A DNA stretch of 64,000 nucleotides from Actinomycetales bacterium. GTDB lineage: Bacteria; Actinomycetota; Actinomycetes; S36-B12; UBA5976. The position numbers and the translations under genes were made by a program. Positions within the stretch are counted from its first letter, which is position 1. The number at the start of each line of letters is the position of its first letter. Where the stretch lies: NCBI GenBank assembly GCA_027484085.1, contig JAIXQF010000004.1:568162-632161 (forward strand), written 5' to 3'. The notes beneath the pieces are model-generated. The model was not told the origin of the DNA. It did not search any database and saw only the letters and a list, made by a program, of their open reading frames with translations. Shown piece by piece: positions 15,422 to 64,000 of this stretch.

Positions 15422-16540
15422 ATGACTGACTATTACAAAGTACTTGGTGTGAGCCGGGATGCCACACCTGAAGAAATCAAACGCGCGTATCGCAAACTTG
15501 CCCGAGAACTTCATCCCGATGTAAATCCAGGTGCCGAGGCTGGTGAGCGCTTCAAGGATGTTACCTCTGCGTACGAAGTGCTATCTGATCCGCAAAAGCG
15601 AGAGATGTTTGATCTTGGTGGTGATCCATTTTCGTCCGGTGGCGGGTTCAACGCAGCGGCTGGATTTGGTTTTGGAGATATTGTTGATGCGTTCTTCGGC
15701 GGTGGCGGACAACGCGGACCACGCTCGCGCAAACGTCGAGGTCAGGATGCGTTAATCAGACTTCAAGTAACTCTCGAAGAAGCAGCCTTTGGTTCAACAA
15801 GAGAATTTGCCGTTGATACGGCAGTAACTTGCACTTCCTGCACTGGCGAAGGCACCACCTCCGGAACCGGGATTGTTAACTGCACAATGTGTGCTGGGCG
15901 AGGTGAAGTTCAATCAGTCCAGAAGTCATTCTTGGGCCAGGTCATGACATCTCGTCAATGTCCGCAATGCCAAGGGTTTGGAACCTTGAACCCACATCCT
16001 TGTGCCGAGTGCGCTGGAGACGGGCGAGTGCGAACTCGCAGCACCTTGTCAGTCCAAATCCCACCAGGTGTTGAGGGTGGAACCCGAATTCAAATGACTG
16101 GTCAAGGTGAAGTTGGTCCAGGTGGCGGTCCAGCAGGTGACCTTTATGTTGAGCTAATCGAATTGCCACACGCAGTCTTCCAGCGCAATGGTGACCAGCT
16201 ACATGCCACGATCTCGCTTCCAATGACAGCAGCAGCGTTAGGCACAACCATGGAACTGGAAACGCTCGATGGTACGGCGCCGATTCACATTAAGCCTGGC
16301 ACTCAATCGGGATCTACGGTCACGTTGCGTGGCCAAGGTATGCCAAGACTTCGCACTTCAGGTCGTGGTGACTTAGTGGTCCATTTAGAAATCCTCACAC
16401 CAACTGGCCTGGATCAAAATCAAGAAGACTTGCTCCGTCAGCTTGCAAGCATGCGCGGCGAAGAAACACCGTCCGCACAATTTCACGAACAATCATCTAG
16501 TTTGTTTGGAAAACTTAAGGATGCGTTTACTACACGATGA
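15422..16540 (+). CDS. dnaJ: Chaperone DnaJ (DnaJ2 type)
   Basis: 372-residue Hsp40 co-chaperone that stimulates DnaK. The J domain has HPD at about residues 32-34, a Gly/Phe-rich linker follows, and then four CXXCXGXG zinc-binding repeats ([32 protein letters not shown]). The C-terminal substrate-binding domains are complete. It lies in the HrcA/CIRCE operon, with its start right after the hrcA stop. rsmE overlaps its stop as ATGA. Confidence 0.96.
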
Positions 16541-53047: not shown

Positions 53048-55990
53048 CTAAGCGCGTAAGCCACGTGCAAAGACATCTAAGAACTGATCCACTTCGGCCT
53101 TACCGATAATCATCGGTGGCTTTATCTTGAGCACGTTGTCTGCTGGTCCATCGCTAGATAGGAACACACCATTTTCTCGAGCGAACTCAATTAAGTCTTT
53201 TGTGATCTGCGTGCCAGGTTCTTGAGTTGCCTTGTCAGCAACTAGTTCAACGCCAATGAACAACCCGCTACCGCGAACATCGCCAATGAATTCAATCTCA
53301 TTGGCTAGTTTGCGGACTTCATCCATCAGGTAGTTGCCCGTCACCAGTGCATTGCGTTGCAACGATTCATCGACGATTACATCCAACACGGTTTGACCAA
53401 TTGCGGCAGAGACTGGGTTGCCGCCAAAGGTATTGAAGTACTCCATGCCATTGATGAAGGAGTGCGCAATCTCAGGGGTAGTGACTACCGCAGCTAGGGG
53501 ATGACCACTACCAAGTGGTTTACCCATGGTCACAATGTCAGGCACAACATCATGCATTTCAAATCCCCAGAAATGGGTACCGACGCGTCCCATGCCGATT
53601 TGAACTTCATCCGCGATGCATACGCCACCGGCTGCTCGTGTAAGTTCAAAGGCTTGCTTTAGAAATCCCGGAGCCAACGGAACTTGGCCACCCGTACTGA
53701 CGATTGATTCCGAAATGAAGGCACAGAGCGGTTCCCCTAATGAATCCAGCTCCCGCTTGAACTCGGCTACATACTTAGCGCCGGCACCTTCGCCACGATG
53801 CAAACCCTTGTAGGCGTCTGGAATTGGTGCAATCCGAACATGGTCTGGTCGGCCTTGGCCGCCGCGACCATTGAATTTGTATGGACTGATGTCAATAATG
53901 CTGGTGATGTGTCCGTGGTAAGCGTGATCCAGAACCATCATGCCTTTGGCTTTAGTGTGTGCCTGGGCTAGGCGAAGAGCTAAATCGTTGGCTTCACTTC
54001 CGCTGTTAACAAAGAACACAACACTCAAAGGATCTGGAAACGTGTTGGCAAGCGCTCGGGCGTATTCAATGGCATTTTGATTCCAATAACGCGTATTGGT
54101 GTTTAAAGTGAGCATTTGTTTATATGCAGCCTCAACAACACGAGGATGACTATGTCCTAAGTGAGCCACATTGTTAACTAGGTCGAGATACTTGCTGCCT
54201 GCGCGATCAAATAAGTAGGCGCCTTGACCACTTACGACCTCTAAGTGCTTTTGGAAGTTCAGGCTTAACGCCCGTGACATAACAACTTGACGCTCTTGGG
54301 CCAGTGTCTCGGTCTTCATGTGGGCATGAACATCTGTGCCTTCAGGAATCCGCAAAATCAGATTCGGATTAGGGCAGATGCTTCGCCAAACTGGAAGTTC
54401 ACTCAATGCGGCGACACCAAAAATGTCATGTCCCATGTCGCACAAATCCAGAATGATCTGGAAATGAGTGTGCGGTGGCCAACCAACGTTAACTTCCTCA
54501 GTTCCCATGGTTGCAATCTGTTGACCTGACTTGATTTCCTTTCCAACAAAAAGGCCCTCTAGCGATTCACGAGATAGGTGAGCGTAAAGAGTGTGGAATT
54601 TAATGCCCTGATCTGTTTCATGCTCCAGAACGATCATTGGCCCATTGTCTAAGTGGGCGGTGTTGTCATTGAATAAAAAGACCTTGCCATCAAGTGCTGC
54701 GTAAACCGGAGTTCCAGCCGGGGCGAATAAATCCACAGCTAAATGAACTGTTCGCGACTCTTTGCCTTCATCCACAAAGAAGTCGGATTCATATACATTT
54801 CGATCTTCGCAGTAATGACCGATAGCAACTTCAGCTCCGGCTGCATGCATTTCGGCTTCAATAGCTTCCCAGGATCTCGCCAGATTCTTGTTGTTTACTG
54901 ACCAGTCCAGCCAAATCTTGTTTGCTTGAGCAAATGGTGGCATTACAACGTCAGAAATATTGGCTGCAGTCGTTGCTAGCCATTGGCGGACGTGGCGACT
55001 ATCTGGATGTGCTTCATAACCACAGGCATTACGAAGTCGGTAATGGGCTAGTCGATCAGATGAAGCGGTAAGTGCTGGCAGTAGCGAGCGGAAGTAGTCC
55101 TGTGAAATTGAAAGATACTCATTGTCGGGATCTGCGGCTAATTGACGATGCGCCATCACCACGCTGGTAGCAACTCGTAAGCAAACTAGATCAAACAAGA
55201 CTTCAAGTTCAGCAGGGGATAGCGGAGCAACTTCGTGATATCCGCGAACAATTGCATAGATACTTGCAACTGGATCGCGAGCATCAAGTTGGTAAGCACA
55301 GCCGACGGCCAATCCGCAGATTCTTGGCGCAAAGATTAGGTCACCAAAATCGATTAGACCAGTGACTTTACCTGCATTAACAACAACGTTGTTGTCGTTT
55401 GCGTCATTGTGGATTAACTGATGCTTGAGAGCTCGAACTTTTGGTAGTGATTTAGTTATTGCGCGATCAAATATTGTTTGAACCTGATTCTGCAGATCTT
55501 GGTCTGAAATCAATTCAATGTCAGATGCAAGATCTTCGGCCTGCATGGCATTCCAACCAAATGGTTGATCTAAAACTTCGCGGTGTATAGAGGCATCTAG
55601 TTTGGCCAATTTCAGATCAACGACTGCTATTAGTTTTCCAAGCTGAACTTTGTTCGTCTCGGATAAGTCTTTTGATTGTGACCACAGATCTCCGTCGATC
55701 CAAGTCAGGAGTCTGGCGAACTTCCCATCACTCAGGTCAGTGAGGAGTTCACCGGCAGACGATGGAACAGTCTTTGGGATTTCAAAGCCGTTCAAGCTGG
55801 ACAAACTCGTAAGCACATCCTGCTGGATCTTGATCTGCGGAACTTCAGATAAGTCATGGATCTTCAGTATGTATTTCCCACGAGGGCTGACAATTAGAAA
55901 GTTGGGATTTCGCTCTCCAGCTAAGGATGTTGCCTCACCATCTATGCCGAAGTGATCTTTTGCTATGTCGTGGGCAGCGAGGATATCCAT
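53048..55990 (-). CDS. Three-domain fusion: APH-type kinase, M23 domain, class III aminotransferase
   Basis: 980 residues. Residues about 1-330 are an aminoglycoside phosphotransferase-like kinase ([13 protein letters not shown] with HxD..N; LIDFGDL). Residues about 390-560 are an M23 metallopeptidase/LysM-type fold with [17 protein letters not shown] (HxxxD) and PPHTHFQI (HxH). Residues about 590-980 are a PLP-dependent class III aminotransferase ([48 protein letters not shown] with the PLP Lys). There is no signal peptide, so the M23 part is cytosolic. Homologous kinase and transaminase-fold proteins in animals phosphorylate hydroxylysine and then eliminate phosphate plus ammonia, so a kinase/phospho-lyase pair is a reasonable guess. 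Confidence 0.88.
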
Positions 55991-57144: not shown

Positions 57145-57171
57145 TATTTGCCGGACTTCACACGTGTATCC
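57145..57171 (+). promoter_or_regulatory. Shared 27-bp promoter element, copy 1
   Basis: Contains TTCACACGTGTATCC (57157-57171) with a palindromic ACACGTGT core, and TTGCC upstream. It matches a site at 60340-60366 at 24 of 27 positions. Its end is 66 bases before the ATG of the secreted DUF1566 protein. Confidence 0.75.
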
Positions 57172-57237
57172 AAATAATTCAGTTCTCAGAATTTGTGGTT
57201 TAGTTCTTTTGGCCCACTTACCAAGGAGTTCTGTAAC

Positions 57238-58365
57238 ATGCGAAAAAATTCAACACTTTTTACAATCCTGGTCACAAGTTTTGTTATGGCGCTTTCGGGA
57301 TTAGTTGCTGGCTCAGTAGCTTCAGCTAGCGAGAATGTAACCGCAACAACTTCATTGCGCTTTTCAACGGGTTCTTCAGCGCTAACCAGTGGTCACAAAG
57401 CGGCAATAACTAAAGCAGTAAACACATCGGGTAAAGATGCAACATTTATTGTCACTGGCACAGCCGGCAAGCTTCCTGGGGCGAGCGACAAAGCAGTTCA
57501 ATTACTCGCTAGAAAACGTGGGGAAGTAGTAAAAGCCTATTTAGTAAAACTTGGTGTGAGCGCGTCAAGTATTACAACAAATGTAAAGATCACCAGAATT
57601 GGTATTGTGCCAAGAACCAAACTTGTTGGCACTTTCGCGGGTGCAACTCCTGAGCCAACACCGTCGACTTCGCCAACAGCTTCTAATTCGCCGACTCCAT
57701 CACCTAGCCCAACACTTGCCCTAACTTGCGCCACTGGGGGAGCTTGCGTCGTAGGAGATCCAGGCCCTGGTGGTGGCATTGTTTACTACGTCGATAACGC
57801 TGGCTTTAGCTGTGGTGCAAGTTACTCATCAACTGGTAGCCCAACGGGTGGGCTATGTAACTACCTGGAGGTTGCCCCTAGTGGGTGGAATGCAGATGGA
57901 GATGCTGGAAACTTAGTCTGGGCCGTAGCAATGAAGCAACATGCTGATGTTTCCGGTATTGATGATGATACTTACCCCGCCGACAACAATGCGGCAGGAA
58001 TTGGACTTGGATTTAAAAACTCTGAACTTATAGTTGCCCAAGGTAACGACATCACCACTGCTGCTGGGGCTGCCCGTGCGTACGCCGGCGGCTCGAAGAC
58101 CGACTGGTACTTGCCAACAGCGACCGAGCTGAACTTGCTTTGCCAATGGAACCGAGGAGTTACTCAAGTTGTCACAACTAAGTGCTCGGGCGGAACTCTC
58201 AATAGCGGTACTGGCGCTACGAATTCGGGTTTTGTGGGTAGCAGTTACTGGTCCTCGTCCGAAGAAGACGCGACCTGGGCGTGGCTCCAGTCGTTCAACA
58301 ATGGCAACCAAGGTGATAACTGGAAGAATGGTACTATTTACGTTCGGCCAGTTCGGGCGTTTTAA
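57238..58365 (+). CDS. Secreted OmpA-like/DUF1566 surface protein
   Basis: 375 residues with a signal peptide (MRKNSTLFTILVTSF onward, cleavage near ASA at about residue 31). In order: an OmpA_C-like domain (LRFSTGSSALTSGHKAAITKA, with LARKRGEVVKAYLVKLGV), a Pro/Ser/Thr linker, and a DUF1566/Lcl-type C-terminal domain (GPGGGIVYYV; DWYLPTATELNLLCQW; SSYWSSSEE; closing VRPVRAF). The start is ATG 57238 with AAGGAG. A cell-surface or extracellular binding role is likely. The OmpA_C domain suggests peptidoglycan contact. Confidence 0.82.
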   Translation: MRKNSTLFTILVTSFVMALSGLVAGSVASASENVTATTSLRFSTGSSALTSGHKAAITKAVNTSGKDATFIVTGTAGKLPGASDKAVQLLARKRGEVVKAYLVKLGVSASSITTNVKITRIGIVPRTKLVGTFAGATPEPTPSTSPTASNSPTPSPSPTLALTCATGGACVVGDPGPGGGIVYYVDNAGFSCGASYSSTGSPTGGLCNYLEVAPSGWNADGDAGNLVWAVAMKQHADVSGIDDDTYPADNNAAGIGLGFKNSELIVAQGNDITTAAGAARAYAGGSKTDWYLPTATELNLLCQWNRGVTQVVTTKCSGGTLNSGTGATNSGFVGSSYWSSSEEDATWAWLQSFNNGNQGDNWKNGTIYVRPVRAF

Positions 58366-58456
58366 CTACTCAACTGTTTTGCTATTGATTCTTAAGCCAT
58401 GAACTGGAGAAAAGCTCTTGGGGTAACACGAGTTCTATCAATCCACGCCGGGATTT

Positions 58457-59551
58457 TTAGTGGGAAATTGGCAACGTTGCGGTAAGCACGGTCTTTCCAC
58501 TTGTGCTTTCTAGGCTCCAACTACCTTTAAGCTTTTGCACCCATGATTCGATTAACGCTGTGCCCGTTCCACTCACCCGGGATGCCGGTAGCGGCACTCC
58601 GTCATTTGAAATACTTAACGTCAAGTGATTGCTTGTGTCGATTTCAATAGCAATCTGACATGTTTTCGCACTGCCATGAATCGCGGCGTTCAATATTGCC
58701 TGTTCGGTAATGCGGTAAACACCCAGCGCGATTTCATTTGGAATTCCTGTCGCCTCAACCGTCAACGTTATTTCCATTGCATTTCGATACTCATGGAAGA
58801 GTTCCTCGAGTGTGGCCGCCAAACCCATGGCTGCAATATCCGGACTTAGCTTGCGACTGGCAAGGCGAATATCTAGGGCACGGAGATCGTCAATCTCGTC
58901 GATCACCGAGTTTATTTCGTTGTTATGTGGTGGATCAATGGTGGCGGATATCCTTCGCAATTCAATTGCAAGAACGACCAAGTTGGCCTGAATGTTATCG
59001 TGCAGAAAATTCGCGACCTCTCGGCGAGCCTTCTCGTCAGCTTCTACAATCATTTCCCGCTGTGCTTCAAGTTGTAATAGTGCTTGACTCTTTTGCGCTA
59101 TCTCCAACTCAAGCCTTTTGTAGTTGTAGCCAAGAAGCGCTGAAAAGATAAACAACGACAAAATGTAGCGCATACCAAGTATCACAGCGGCTCTTGTTGT
59201 TGTTTCAATGTAAAGATTTTGAACCATTTGAAAGAGGGTTCCGGAAACCACGATTACGAATATGTAGCTGCTTCGCTCCGAGATCTTTGTGACTAACGCG
59301 GAATTTGCTTTTTTAGCAGCTGTAAGAATGAAAAAAACTGCAGCAATGTAGATCAGGGTATGAACTATTTCAAGTTTCCAGTATTCAAAAAACTTTAGAT
59401 TTAGACTTTGTGCCACCTTTATTCCCGCAAAGCTACTGGCCATGGCAAATGCCAGGGAGATCTGCAAAGGATAAATAGGCCAAGGACCGAAGATTGATCT
59501 GCCCAATTCTTGCTTTGAGAGAAGTTTAACCTTCATTGAAATTGGCGTCAT
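58457..59551 (-). CDS. Membrane histidine kinase (NarL-type)
   Basis: About 364 residues from ATG 59551; ATG 59536 is also possible. The N-terminal 150 residues hold five to six membrane spans. EVANFLHDNIQANLVVLAIELRR carries the phospho-accepting His of the HisKA_3 type. The ATPase domain shows VYRITEQAILNAAIHGSA (N box) and VSGTGTALIESWVQKL. No periplasmic sensor domain of any size, so the signal may be within the membrane. It overlaps the response regulator gene by 26 bases. Confidence 0.82.
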   Translation of the reverse strand: MTPISMKVKLLSKQELGRSIFGPWPIYPLQISLAFAMASSFAGIKVAQSLNLKFFEYWKLEIVHTLIYIAAVFFILTAAKKANSALVTKISERSSYIFVIVVSGTLFQMVQNLYIETTTRAAVILGMRYILSLFIFSALLGYNYKRLELEIAQKSQALLQLEAQREMIVEADEKARREVANFLHDNIQANLVVLAIELRRISATIDPPHNNEINSVIDEIDDLRALDIRLASRKLSPDIAAMGLAATLEELFHEYRNAMEITLTVEATGIPNEIALGVYRITEQAILNAAIHGSAKTCQIAIEIDTSNHLTLSISNDGVPLPASRVSGTGTALIESWVQKLKGSWSLESTSGKTVLTATLPISH

Positions 59552-60206
59552 ATGTTCTAGTTTCTCGTAGATATCGCAGCACGGCAGTTGTTCGCAGATC
59601 GGTACCCGGTTTTGGATCTGGAACCAGTATTTGATAAATCTTTGAAAGCTCTTTTCGAATCGTAACGGGTGCCAAATCAAGATTCACTGCAATTACCGTC
59701 GCATCCACCCCTGTTGCAGCCAGAGACATTATGTTCTGTTGACGAACAGAGAGCCTTGCAATGAGATTCTCGGAACTGCGAACTGGCGAAATCACCATTT
59801 CTGGCTCAACCGTGCCTAGTCCTTTGGCCGTAGATTTCAGAACTTCAGTTAGGTAGTCAATGTCTATCTTTGACTGCTTGCGAATTGCCGACCAACCCAT
59901 GCGCACATCTTCCGGCAAATTAGAAATGAAGTCTGAAACTGCATGTTGGGAATAAATAACGATTCCAATTTCAGGGCTACTGTTTCGTAGTTGAATTCCA
60001 AGCTCAAGTCCGTTGATGCTTTCGGCCCCAAGTGACAGATCTAGTAATGCGACATCAAATTTAAACGCCTCTGTCTTGCTCAATGCCTCCTGAGCAGAAG
60101 ATGCAGTGGCAGTGATTTCAATTGTGGGTTCTTTGGAAAGTGCAGCAGAGAGAATTCCACGTAACGCTGGGTCATCTTCAACGTATAGAACTCGGGTTGG
60201 TCGCAT
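59526..60206 (-). CDS. NarL/FixJ-type response regulator
   Basis: 226 residues. Receiver domain with RVLYVEDDPALRGIL and the phospho-accepting Asp in VALLDLSLG, then a LuxR-type helix-turn-helix (RQQNIMSLAATGVDATVIAVNLDLAPVTIRKELSKIYQIL). The start is ATG 60206 (MRPTRVLYVED). Encoded with the histidine kinase just downstream and lying between two genes for secreted proteins that share a promoter element; it is the obvious candidate regulator of both. Confidence 0.87.
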   Translation of the reverse strand: MRPTRVLYVEDDPALRGILSAALSKEPTIEITATASSAQEALSKTEAFKFDVALLDLSLGAESINGLELGIQLRNSSPEIGIVIYSQHAVSDFISNLPEDVRMGWSAIRKQSKIDIDYLTEVLKSTAKGLGTVEPEMVISPVRSSENLIARLSVRQQNIMSLAATGVDATVIAVNLDLAPVTIRKELSKIYQILVPDPKPGTDLRTTAVLRYLRETRTYDANFNEG

Positions 60207-60339
60207 ATTTATCCAGGTTGAGTCGAACACAGCGCAACATTTTTGCCATCTTTAGATTACTGACCCAGAGGGCATCGCAACTTATCGGATACATCTGTTT
60301 CCGAAAACTTGGTCCCAGAGATCACTACCTTCTTGCAGA

Positions 60340-60366
60340 TAGTTGCCCGAATTCACACGTGTATCC
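60340..60366 (+). promoter_or_regulatory. Shared 27-bp promoter element, copy 2
   Basis: Same TTCACACGTGTATCC core (60352-60366) as copy 1 at 57145-57171. Its end is 70 bases before the ATG of the leucine-rich-repeat protein. A GGATACA half-match in the other orientation lies at 60287-60293, closer to the response regulator gene. Confidence 0.75.
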
Positions 60367-60436: not shown

Positions 60437-63400
60437 ATGTTCCGTAAGCTAACTCGTACTGTTGCAGCAATAGCCGCACTTTCAATTTCGCTTTCTGGAC
60501 TGGGGATTAGTCCGGTCCAAGCCAATGACTCGGTACCGACTGATGGAGAGTACGTCTGTACCACCGGTGCGCTACGCGAGGTCGATGACACAAGCCTGGC
60601 TTATACAATCACGAATGGTGTTGTAAGTTCTGCCGCTGATTGCACTGGCGCTGTAACGATTGCGTCGGGCGTAACAGTAATTGCCGAAAGCGCCTTCGAT
60701 GGTGCATCAGGTATGACTTCTGTTTCAATTCCAGCGAGTGTCACAAGCATTGAAGGTTATGCCTTCTATGGCGCAAGTATTCTTATGGATGTTAACTTCT
60801 TTGGCAATGCGCCAACTAACGTTGGTGAGGACGCCTTTTTCAGGACCGCCAGCGGCGCTAAAGCTATCATCAGCGCTACTGCCACAGGTTTTGGCACGGA
60901 GGCTACATGGAACGGCCTTGTTCTTCAGGTCTTACCTGCAAATGGAGAATACGTTTGCACGACAGGCGCGCTACTCGTAGATGGCGACACAAGCCCGACT
61001 TACACAATCAATAACGGTGTTGTAAGTTCTGCCGCTGATTGCACTGGCGCTGTAACGATTGCATCGGGCGCAACAGCAATTGCTGAAAGCGCCTTCGAAG
61101 ATGCATCAGGTATAACTTCTATGTCAATCCCAGCTAGCACCACATCAATTGGATCCTGTGATATGGCAGCAACGAGCATCACAGTAGACAGTGCCAACCC
61201 GAATTATTCGTCGATTAATGGTGTGCTATTCAACAAGGCCGGAAATTCTCTAGTTAGCTACCCAACTGCAAATACAGCAGTTTCATACAGCGTTCCCTCT
61301 TCTGTTACGAAAATCATGTATTGCGCCTTTTACAAGGCACGGTTTCTCGAAACGGTAAGCATCCCTAACTCCGTAACGAGCATTGAGGACTGGGCTTTTT
61401 CTGTTATGCCAAATGTTGAAACCATTACATTTGCATCTGGAAGTCCCATCACAAGAATCCAAGACTTTGTATTTACAAATAATATGAATCTGAATTCGAT
61501 CGTTCTTCCCTCGAATCTCGAATCTATTGGTGGTTTCGCGTTCGACAGCAACACGTCCCTGACGTCCATCACTTTCCCAGCAAGTGTCACAAGCATTGGG
61601 GATTACGCGTTCCGAGGCGCAAACTCCCTAACATTTATCACCATTCCTAATGCGGTCACAACCATTGGAATTGGCGCGTTCCTCGGAGCGACCGCTCTAA
61701 CCTCAATCGCCATCCCAGCCGCAACCACGTCAATAGGTGCTGGGGCACTCCAAGGTGCAAATGCACTTACGGAAATTTCCGTGAACTCGTTTAGCCAGAG
61801 CTACTCATCGATCGATGGAGTGCTTTTTGATAAGAGCGCTTCGGTTTTGTTCAAGTACCCAGCGGCAAAAAGCGGAACTTCCTATGAAATTCCATCAAGT
61901 GTTACAAGCATTAAAGGGAGGTCATTTGAAAACGCAGCGTCACTGACCGCAATTTCCATCCCCGCGAGTGTAACCGATGTTGAGGATTTTGCTTTTGAAA
62001 ATGCCACCGCCTTGACGGACTTCAACTTCTTGGGCGATGCTCCAACAAATTTGGGAGCCGACTCATTTAGCGGAATCGCCGCCGGTGCTATAGCTAACAT
62101 CAGTGCTGGTGCCAGTGGATTTGGTTCTGGACCAACATGGAATGGACTAGCCATTAATCGGGAAGCCTTGATAACAAACGGAAACTACGTTTGCACTACT
62201 GGAGAGCTAGACCTTGAGGGCCAGAACAGTACTTACTTCATCTTTGAGGGTGTTGTAAGTAATGGCACAGGTTGCTCTGGTGCTGTTGTGATCCCTGAAG
62301 GTGTGGTCAGCATCGGTGTCAGCGCTTTTGAATCCAACCCGTCAATAACTACTGTCACAATCCCAGCAAGTGTCACAAGTATTGAGCACTCCGCGTTCTA
62401 TGACACAACAGCATTAAGCGAGATTTACTTCGTCGGCAATGCGCCAGACTCCGTTGGTGTTGAGATCTTCTATGGAGTACCAATCGGAGCCAAGGCTTAC
62501 ATCAAAGCCAGTGCCACTGGATTTGGTAATGAATCAACATGGAATGGCCTTACGATTCGGCGCGATTATTCCGATTTCATGGGCACCCTAAATTGTGAAA
62601 CAGGTGTGCGACTTGAAGTAGGTGACACAAGTTCGTTCTACATGGTAGAAAACGGCGTTGTAACTACTGGCAATGCTTGCTCTGGCACCGTGGTAATTCC
62701 AGATGGGGTAACGAGCATTGGGGGCAGTGCCTTCCGTGGGGCGACCGCACTGACGTCGATCAATATCCCAGAAGGGGTCACAAGCATTGGAAACAACGCG
62801 TTCCAAGAAGCAACAGCGCTAACGAGCATCACCATCCCATCTAGCGTCACGAGCATCGGAGGCGCAGCTTTCTTCGGCGCAACTTCACTAAGTGACGTTA
62901 ACTTCCAAGGAAATGCTCCAACAGTCGGGCAGATGTCAATGAGCTTTGACAACATCGCAAATGGAGCAAAAGCTCATGTCAGTGACATCGCAACAGGGTT
63001 TGGTACTGATCCAACGTGGCGAGGCTTAATTCTTGCCAGGTATCCTACAGATGGAGAATACGTTTGCACAACCGGAGTTTTGCAATCAGATGACACAAGC
63101 CCGACTTACACAATCACCAACAGGGTGGTGTCAAATGGATCTGATTGCGAACTTGCGGCAGTTATCCCAGATGGTGTCACAGGCATTGGGACCAATGCTT
63201 TTAATAATGCGTTCTCACTTACCAGCATCGCCATCCCAGCAAGCGTCACAAGAATTGGTGAATCTGGATTTGTCTCCACCACAGCTCTTCAAACTGTTTC
63301 ATTCGCCCCAGGTAGCCAGCTTCAGTTCATCGATGCTTCTGCATTTGAAGGTGCTATCGCACTTACCAGTATCACTATCCCAGCAGGAGTTATCAGCATT

Positions 63401-64000
63401 GGGAACTATGCATTTTACGATGCAGCCAAGCTAACGGACGTTGTCTTCTTGGGCGACGCACCAACATTTGGTGCACAAGTCTTTGATTTCATAGCCTACG
63501 ACTACGACCCCGCCCCAGAAGCTACTTTCCATATCAGTGCAGCCGCTGAGGGATTTGGAAATTTATCAACGTGGACAACTTTTAATGGTGGCGAAAATAA
63601 GCCGATTGCTTTCAAGCTCTACTTGGTTGCCCCTCCAGTCAATGGAACTTACGTTTGTACAACCGGACTGCTTCGCGCAGGCAGCGACACAAGTGAGGCA
63701 TTCACGATCATTGATGGTGTTGTAAAAGATGGCACCAGTTGCTCCGGCGCTGCAGTGATCCCAAATGGCGTGAGAGAAATCGGGGTTGAAGCCTTTGTTG
63801 GAGCATCGTTAACATCTATCTCAATTCCGTCAAGTGTCATTAGCATCGAGGACTTTGCGTTTCAGACCGCTGAATATTTACAAACTGTTACATTTGCTCA
63901 AGGTAGCCAACTTGAGAGAATTGGTAATGGTGCATTTAATTATGCCAAGGCGATTACCAGTATCGTAATCCCGGCAAGTGTCACAAGCATCGGATCACAA
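60437..64000 (+). CDS. Giant secreted BspA-like leucine-rich-repeat protein, cut by the window end
   Basis: Open without a stop for 1188 codons to the right edge. Signal peptide MFRKLTRTVAAIAALSISLS..., cleavage near VQA at residue 29. Most of the protein is LRR_5 (BspA-type) repeats of the form LTSISIPASVTSIGDYAF. Six modules each start with a YVCTTG-like segment (residues 39, 172, 584, 718 with LNCETG, 875, 1072), then DTS-TYTI--GVV and a second Cys in DCTGAV/SCSGAV, probably a disulfide. Interspersed NAPT-VGEDAF and ATGFGTEATWNGL segments recur. Likely cell-surface adhesin or a binding protein. C-terminal anchor lies outside the window. Confidence 0.87.
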   Translation, partial: MFRKLTRTVAAIAALSISLSGLGISPVQANDSVPTDGEYVCTTGALREVDDTSLAYTITNGVVSSAADCTGAVTIASGVTVIAESAFDGASGMTSVSIPASVTSIEGYAFYGASILMDVNFFGNAPTNVGEDAFFRTASGAKAIISATATGFGTEATWNGLVLQVLPANGEYVCTTGALLVDGDTSPTYTINNGVVSSAADCTGAVTIASGATAIAESAFEDASGITSMSIPASTTSIGSCDMAATSITVDSANPNYSSINGVLFNKAGNSLVSYPTANTAVSYSVPSSVTKIMYCAFYKARFLETVSIPNSVTSIEDWAFSVMPNVETITFASGSPITRIQDFVFTNNMNLNSIVLPSNLESIGGFAFDSNTSLTSITFPASVTSIGDYAFRGANSLTFITIPNAVTTIGIGAFLGATALTSIAIPAATTSIGAGALQGANALTEISVNSFSQSYSSIDGVLFDKSASVLFKYPAAKSGTSYEIPSSVTSIKGRSFENAASLTAISIPASVTDVEDFAFENATALTDFNFLGDAPTNLGADSFSGIAAGAIANISAGASGFGSGPTWNGLAINREALITNGNYVCTTGELDLEGQNSTYFIFEGVVSNGTGCSGAVVIPEGVVSIGVSAFESNPSITTVTIPASVTSIEHSAFYDTTALSEIYFVGNAPDSVGVEIFYGVPIGAKAYIKASATGFGNESTWNGLTIRRDYSDFMGTLNCETGVRLEVGDTSSFYMVENGVVTTGNACSGTVVIPDGVTSIGGSAFRGATALTSINIPEGVTSIGNNAFQEATALTSITIPSSVTSIGGAAFFGATSLSDVNFQGNAPTVGQMSMSFDNIANGAKAHVSDIATGFGTDPTWRGLILARYPTDGEYVCTTGVLQSDDTSPTYTITNRVVSNGSDCELAAVIPDGVTGIGTNAFNNAFSLTSIAIPASVTRIGESGFVSTTALQTVSFAPGSQLQFIDASAFEGAIALTSITIPAGVISIGNYAFYDAAKLTDVVFLGDAPTFGAQVFDFIAYDYDPAPEATFHISAAAEGFGNLSTWTTFNGGENKPIAFKLYLVAPPVNGTYVCTTGLLRAGSDTSEAFTIIDGVVKDGTSCSGAAVIPNGVREIGVEAFVGASLTSISIPSSVISIEDFAFQTAEYLQTVTFAQGSQLERIGNGAFNYAKAITSIVIPASVTSIGSQ
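60551..61148 (+). repeat. Tandem near-identical DNA module within the LRR gene
   Basis: Module 1 (starts 60551) and module 2 (starts 60950) lie exactly 399 bases apart. From 60587 to about 60735 and from 60986 to about 61134 they are almost identical at the DNA level, including synonymous positions. This points to a recent duplication or gene conversion. Later modules start at 62186, 62588, 63059 and 63650 and have diverged. Confidence 0.85.

Follow-up and report, generated by a model that had tools for sequence, protein, structure and literature searches.

Why does nearly the same 27-bp sequence stand before two genes for secreted proteins, with a two-component system encoded between them? 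The question arose from a 64,000-nucleotide stretch of an Actinomycetales genome, hereafter the window, for which an initial annotation had proposed a promoter element common to a small regulon of surface proteins. Re-reading and comparing the sequences in place confirmed the coordinates: element 1 (TATTTGCCGGACTTCACACGTGTATCC, 57145-57171, plus strand) and element 2 (TAGTTGCCCGAATTCACACGTGTATCC, 60340-60366, plus strand) are identical at 24 of 27 positions, and the 15-mer TTCACACGTGTATCC, with the palindrome ACACGTGT inside it, is exact in both. By direct comparison the DNA around the two elements is dissimilar. The distances to the start codons are 66 bp (ATG at 57238) and 70 bp (ATG at 60437), and the kinase and regulator genes, both on the minus strand, do lie between the elements.

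Element 1 precedes an ORF for a 375-aa secreted protein (57238-58365, plus strand) with a signal peptide and, according to Pfam, an OmpA-like domain (27.4 bits against a cut-off of 27.2) and an Lcl_C domain of the DUF1566 type (43.9 bits); its ATG lies 15 codons inside the mechanical ORF of 57193-58365. Element 2 precedes the gene of a secreted BspA-type leucine-rich-repeat protein with an OmpA-like C-terminal region (60437-64000, plus strand, continuing beyond the window), a protein with a total length of 2052 aa, which ends at L034:10757 and whose in-window part scores 433 bits with Pfam LRR_5. Both proteins are predicted targets of the regulator.

The response regulator gene (59526-60206, minus strand, 226 aa) overlaps the kinase gene by 26 bp. 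Its product has a receiver (Response_reg, 50.1 bits, cut-off 30.2) and a probable C-terminal helix-turn-helix (GerE, 20.8 bits, under the cut-off of 23.5), the arrangement found in the NarL/FixJ regulators E. coli NarL, S. aureus VraR, E. faecium LiaR and B. subtilis DesR. The solved sequences nearest to it are VraR, NarL, DevR and DesR, and the receiver residues E10, D12, D56 and K110 are invariant in 38 family members. The structural model (pLDDT 86.6) was matched by Foldseek to full-length VraR, LiaR, spr1814, DesR, RcsB and NarL; against VraR (4gvp), to which the regulator is only about 24% identical, the Z score is 18.2 over 187 residues, the rmsd of 11.9 reflecting a difference in the relative orientation of the two domains. 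The modelled fold and the receiver residues agree with a regulator of the NarL type, and the protein is the predicted operator binder, with the adjacent surface proteins as predicted targets in comparison with the known NarL/FixJ regulators.

The histidine kinase (58457-59551, minus strand, 364 aa) was recognised from a HATPase_c match (23.8 bits, under the cut-off of 26.4), from the conserved residues H184, D185, Q188 and N288, of which H184 lies in the dimerisation helix, and from a model. Like DesK/LiaS-type kinases, which sense from within the membrane in cell-envelope systems, it has several predicted membrane helices (four) joined by very short loops and a putative LHDxxQ phospho-acceptor motif, and like them it is without an extracellular domain, from which we infer that its signal would be intramembrane or membrane-proximal. 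It differs from those kinases in a conserved GPWPxxP motif ahead of the first membrane helix. The pair was also considered as an equivalog of LiaS, UhpB, MadS or MctS and this was rejected, the best NCBIfam score being 59.2 bits against a cut-off of 700. The kind of system is a known one, a NarL-type regulator with a DesK/LiaS-like kinase, and the module represents a new family of it; in the open-licence PMC literature we found no description of the regulator family, of its motif, or of regulation by it in Nanopelagicales or Aurantimicrobium.

The initial annotation had suggested a scan for further copies, with many random copies as the outcome that would speak against it; what the scan returned was three copies of the half-site pattern ACANNTGTATCC in 1.8 Mb, all inside one 3.2-kb locus. 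One copy stands before each of three transcription units and TGTATCC is always on the gene side. A reversed-pattern control also gave three hits in the genome, hence the count itself is about background and it is the co-location within 3.2 kb that is the signal. The exact 15-mer TTCACACGTGTATCC has two copies in the genome, both of them the window elements, and allowing two mismatches adds one place, TTCACTCGGGTATCC in L038, which is without the TGT half-site. With one mismatch allowed the 15-mer was absent from 22 other genomes of the genus. Exact 15-mer repeats are not rare in the window, where several unrelated pairs occur, and the 15-mer match alone is therefore weak evidence; ACANNTGT cores number 12 in the window, three of them in the operators described below. 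A matrix built from the whole family gives the window sites only moderate scores (8.3, 7.5 and 3.7 bits) and does not single them out, with 31 places above 7 bits in the 64 kb, so it is the half-site of the clade, together with position, that carries the case. Judged from the sequences, the placement of the elements and the pattern in relatives do not look like chance.

Comparison with relatives changed the description of the conserved unit. The 27-bp match is real, but what relatives keep is only a 16-bp NarL-like inverted repeat of two heptamers with a 2-bp spacing (7-2-7) and the core ACA-NN-TGT. The copy in element 1 reads CTTCACA-CG-TGTATCC (57156-57171, plus strand), its core being found also upstream of secreted genes in relatives, and the one in element 2 reads ATTCACA-CG-TGTATCC (60351-60366, plus strand); both are ACANNTGTATCC copies. 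The remaining ACANNTGTATCC copy is a diverged site, GGAAACAGATGTATCC (60287-60302, minus strand), which faces the regulator gene with its core centre 88 bp before the regulator ATG; sites facing the regulator are the rule in relatives, and this one is a predicted autoregulatory operator. From the start of the core to the start codon of the secreted genes there are 78 and 82 bp in the window and 81, 66 and 81 bp in a module of the same genus, a similar spacing.

Relatives were gathered with four regulator queries (those of the window and of a paralog that its genome carries at a distance of about 11 kb, one of the same genus and one of another family), which gave about 52 close relatives in public genomes, 33-59% identical and mostly from freshwater Actinomycetota. 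An unseeded palindrome search in 48 non-redundant regions upstream of these regulators, the window's own among them, returned TGTCACA-NN-TGTGACA (log-likelihood 173.7; shuffled 31.6), situated 38-41 bp before the regulator start in most loci; about a quarter of the regions were without a clear site. A motif-free check, in which all 64 cores of the form NNN-NN-N'N'N' were counted, ranked ACA-NN-TGT first of the 64 both upstream of the regulator (32/48) and upstream of nearby secreted genes (25/43), two counts that are partly dependent since divergent pairs have one common intergenic region. The median core was at about 2%, and ACA-NN-TGT was found upstream of 3/112 distant genes, 1/41 kinase genes and 11/101 other neighbours. 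The window and a locus of another family, whose regulator is 50% identical, have TCACACGTGTATC in common. In Aurantimicrobium minutum TCATACANNTGTATGA occurs twice genome-wide with at most one mismatch, and both copies are in the module, one before the regulator and one before a secreted gene 3.4 kb away. Nine other genomes hold 38 exact palindromes TCACANNTGTGA (reversed control 4), of which 23 lie within known module loci by our count of coordinates, including 6/6 in one genome; some of the copies outside known loci may come from additional modules.

Beyond the core, the half-site varies from one regulator clade to another, and the 2-bp spacing is fixed. The half-site is TGTGA in most clades, TGTATGA in Aurantimicrobium, TGTATCC in the window, TGTATCG in G053, TGTCTC in L045/L048/L049 and AGTGACA in L052, L055/L056 and L076, and an asymmetric form, in which TGTGACA is paired with either TGTTCTC or TGTTACC, is found in the second module of the window's own genome and in 12 others. 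Five operator classes can be placed on the regulator tree with 5 changes (minimum 4; mean 23.8 after shuffling), and in a partial Mantel test the distance between sites is related to that between recognition helices given the receiver (r 0.34, p 0.0005); we made the assignment of half-sites and classes ourselves, and tree clustering and helix co-variation share phylogeny. In these computations the operator flanks track the regulator tree and change together with the recognition helix. For the AGTGA class there are two origins, in clades having T at position 187 (L055/L056) or V at position 188 (L052/L076); elsewhere the conservation of L187 and S188 is 90% or more. No AGTGA site was found within the DNA examined of L059, which belongs to the second AGTGA clade, and L061 has T at 188 yet a normal site; the correspondence of operator and helix residue is thus good, although not perfect.

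The second module of the same genome lies past the window end (L034:14657-19688). It has a regulator and kinase of the same family, the regulator being 42% identical, and adjoins two more BspA-type secreted genes. Its operators (TGTCACAGATGTATCG, at L034:16467-16482 and 16496-16511) differ in type from those of the window and match its own regulator clade.

These results support the proposal of a small surface-protein regulon under the adjacent two-component system: the operators recur before homologous regulator and secreted genes in dozens of genomes, their variants go with the phylogeny of the regulator and with its recognition helix, and across whole genomes the copies cluster in module loci. 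Both elements are very probably docking sites of the regulator encoded between them. The regulon looks local, consisting of the regulator-kinase operon with the adjacent secreted genes and including the site that faces the regulator gene. We put at about 85% the probability that the locus is a local, self-regulated surface-protein switch, in which a regulator dimer would act at three predicted 7-2-7 operators, and that it is one of a family of such switches. The computations establish the sites, their conservation, their concentration in these loci and the joint variation of operator and recognition helix, and operator binding, phosphorylation, autoregulation and the direction of control are inferences. 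The membrane kinase, with almost no extracellular part, would phosphorylate the NarL-type regulator, and the dimer would bind the inverted repeats, two copies of TTCACACGTGTATCC and one of GGAAACAGATGTATCC, whose centres lie some 75-90 bp ahead of the start codons of three units: the Lcl_C/OmpA protein, the BspA-type protein and the regulator-kinase operon itself. The outcome would be a small switch for cell-surface proteins, and the window module would be one member of a module family in freshwater actinobacteria.

For the direction of control we lean towards activation of the secreted genes, a guess by analogy. The sites bound by NarL are pairs of heptamers in inverted orientation, 2 bp apart; it activates from positions upstream of the -35 region, its activating 7-2-7 sites having their centres between -44.5 and -77.5 (PMC7419079), and the window sites, whose distances to the start codons are 66 and 70 bp, would leave room for such a position. 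A smaller but real chance attaches to the same operators and regulator working otherwise, the regulator repressing the secreted genes or activating only its own operon: NarL itself represses from some 7-2-7 sites, among them a site at the start (PMC4549865), and in several relatives the site before the regulator lies, by eye, 17 bp from a -10-like hexamer and would overlap a -35. TANNNT boxes showed no single preferred distance from the operators; with no fixed -10 position, the sign of control is not readable from sequence.

In place of the word promoter in the initial annotation we prefer operator, since consensus scanning found no sigma-70-like promoter at the elements; a terminator scan there was also negative. 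A copied promoter, for instance one of an alternative sigma factor, with -35/-10-like sequence duplicated before the two secreted genes, would be in keeping with the way in which the 24/27 match runs 5' beyond the operator into TTGCC[GC]GA (57148-57156 and 60343-60351), a stretch present neither at the regulator-facing site 60287-60302 nor in the operators of relatives. However, the flanks of the elements are dissimilar, and relatives keep the inverted repeat, with halves that vary by regulator clade at a fixed 2-bp spacing, which makes such a copy improbable. Slightly less probable still is that an unrelated repressor of CopY/BlaI type uses the elements as its operators, the two-component genes being neighbours by accident: the CopY operator (TACANNTGTA; RNYKACANNYGTMRNY) has the same palindromic ACA-NN-TGT core and spacing (PMC7253601) and TACANNTGTA is contained in the Aurantimicrobium TCATACANNTGTATGA, but a PF03965 (Penicillinase_R) search at E <= 0.001 found no family member in the window's own genome (G000), with 7/14 control genomes positive, nor in two of three relatives searched, and the sites precede regulator genes of this family with flanks that vary with regulator clade and helix.

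Returning to the switch under its own regulator, one of the known systems closest to it is that of NarL, with which it has in common the 7-2-7 operator of two heptamers and a 2-bp spacing, regulator binding being predicted here. It differs in the heptamer, which is TACYYMT in NarL and of the type TGT(G/A/C)NNN in this family (TGTATCC in the window). Gene maps of relatives show the regulator adjoining a kinase and, repeatedly, large secreted proteins. Pfam domains in 26 such secreted neighbours comprise fn3 (9), OmpA (7), Listeria-Bacteroides repeats (6) and BspA LRR (3), besides beta-propellers and Ig-like domains, and by these domains the neighbours would be adhesin-like surface proteins. The OmpA-like region suggests peptidoglycan anchoring in a Gram-positive lineage. 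The BspA-type proteins at L034:4599-19688 end in a common OmpA-like region of about 100 aa.

A wider proposal, to which we give even odds, is that insulated one-module switches of this sort run through the lineage, each pair controlling only itself and adjacent, fast-changing large surface proteins, with paralogs kept apart by joint change of operator flank and recognition helix; it would include the two origins of TCACT..AGTGA, each with its own change at L187-S188. These freshwater actinobacteria are abundant organisms for which little genetics exists, and the operators offer a testable DNA code for the possible switching of a set of their large surface proteins (LRR, fn3, Ig-like, beta-propeller, OmpA-anchored). 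The natural series of regulators and operators, including same-genome paralogs, is a data set on specificity change and cross-talk avoidance in NarL-type regulators. One member is found in a genome titled Aurantimicrobium minutum MWH-Tana7, a named strain, and tests in a relative are conceivable.

The regulator family is present in 47/166 genomes of the order and, at E <= 1e-30, in only 2/23 genomes of the window's genus, a patchiness suggestive of loss or transfer. Regulators from L051, L065, L076 and L088, titled Streptomycetaceae or Bifidobacterium breve, are nested among those of Nanopelagicales, and the titles are probably those of mislabelled metagenome bins. The regulators of L039 and L040 (31% and 28%) were rejected as members, being of other NarL-type families in which the kinase is of a different type. 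An unrelated NarL-type kinase/regulator pair (L035:7059-9436) has a very large secreted protein (10239 to >16001) as its neighbour, and a 9.4-bit operator-like match is found at L035:9580, upstream of that regulator. In the window a single 980-aa ORF (53048-55990) fuses APH phosphotransferase, M23 peptidase and class-III aminotransferase domains, and part of a similar fusion can be seen in L037, a locus of the same genus.
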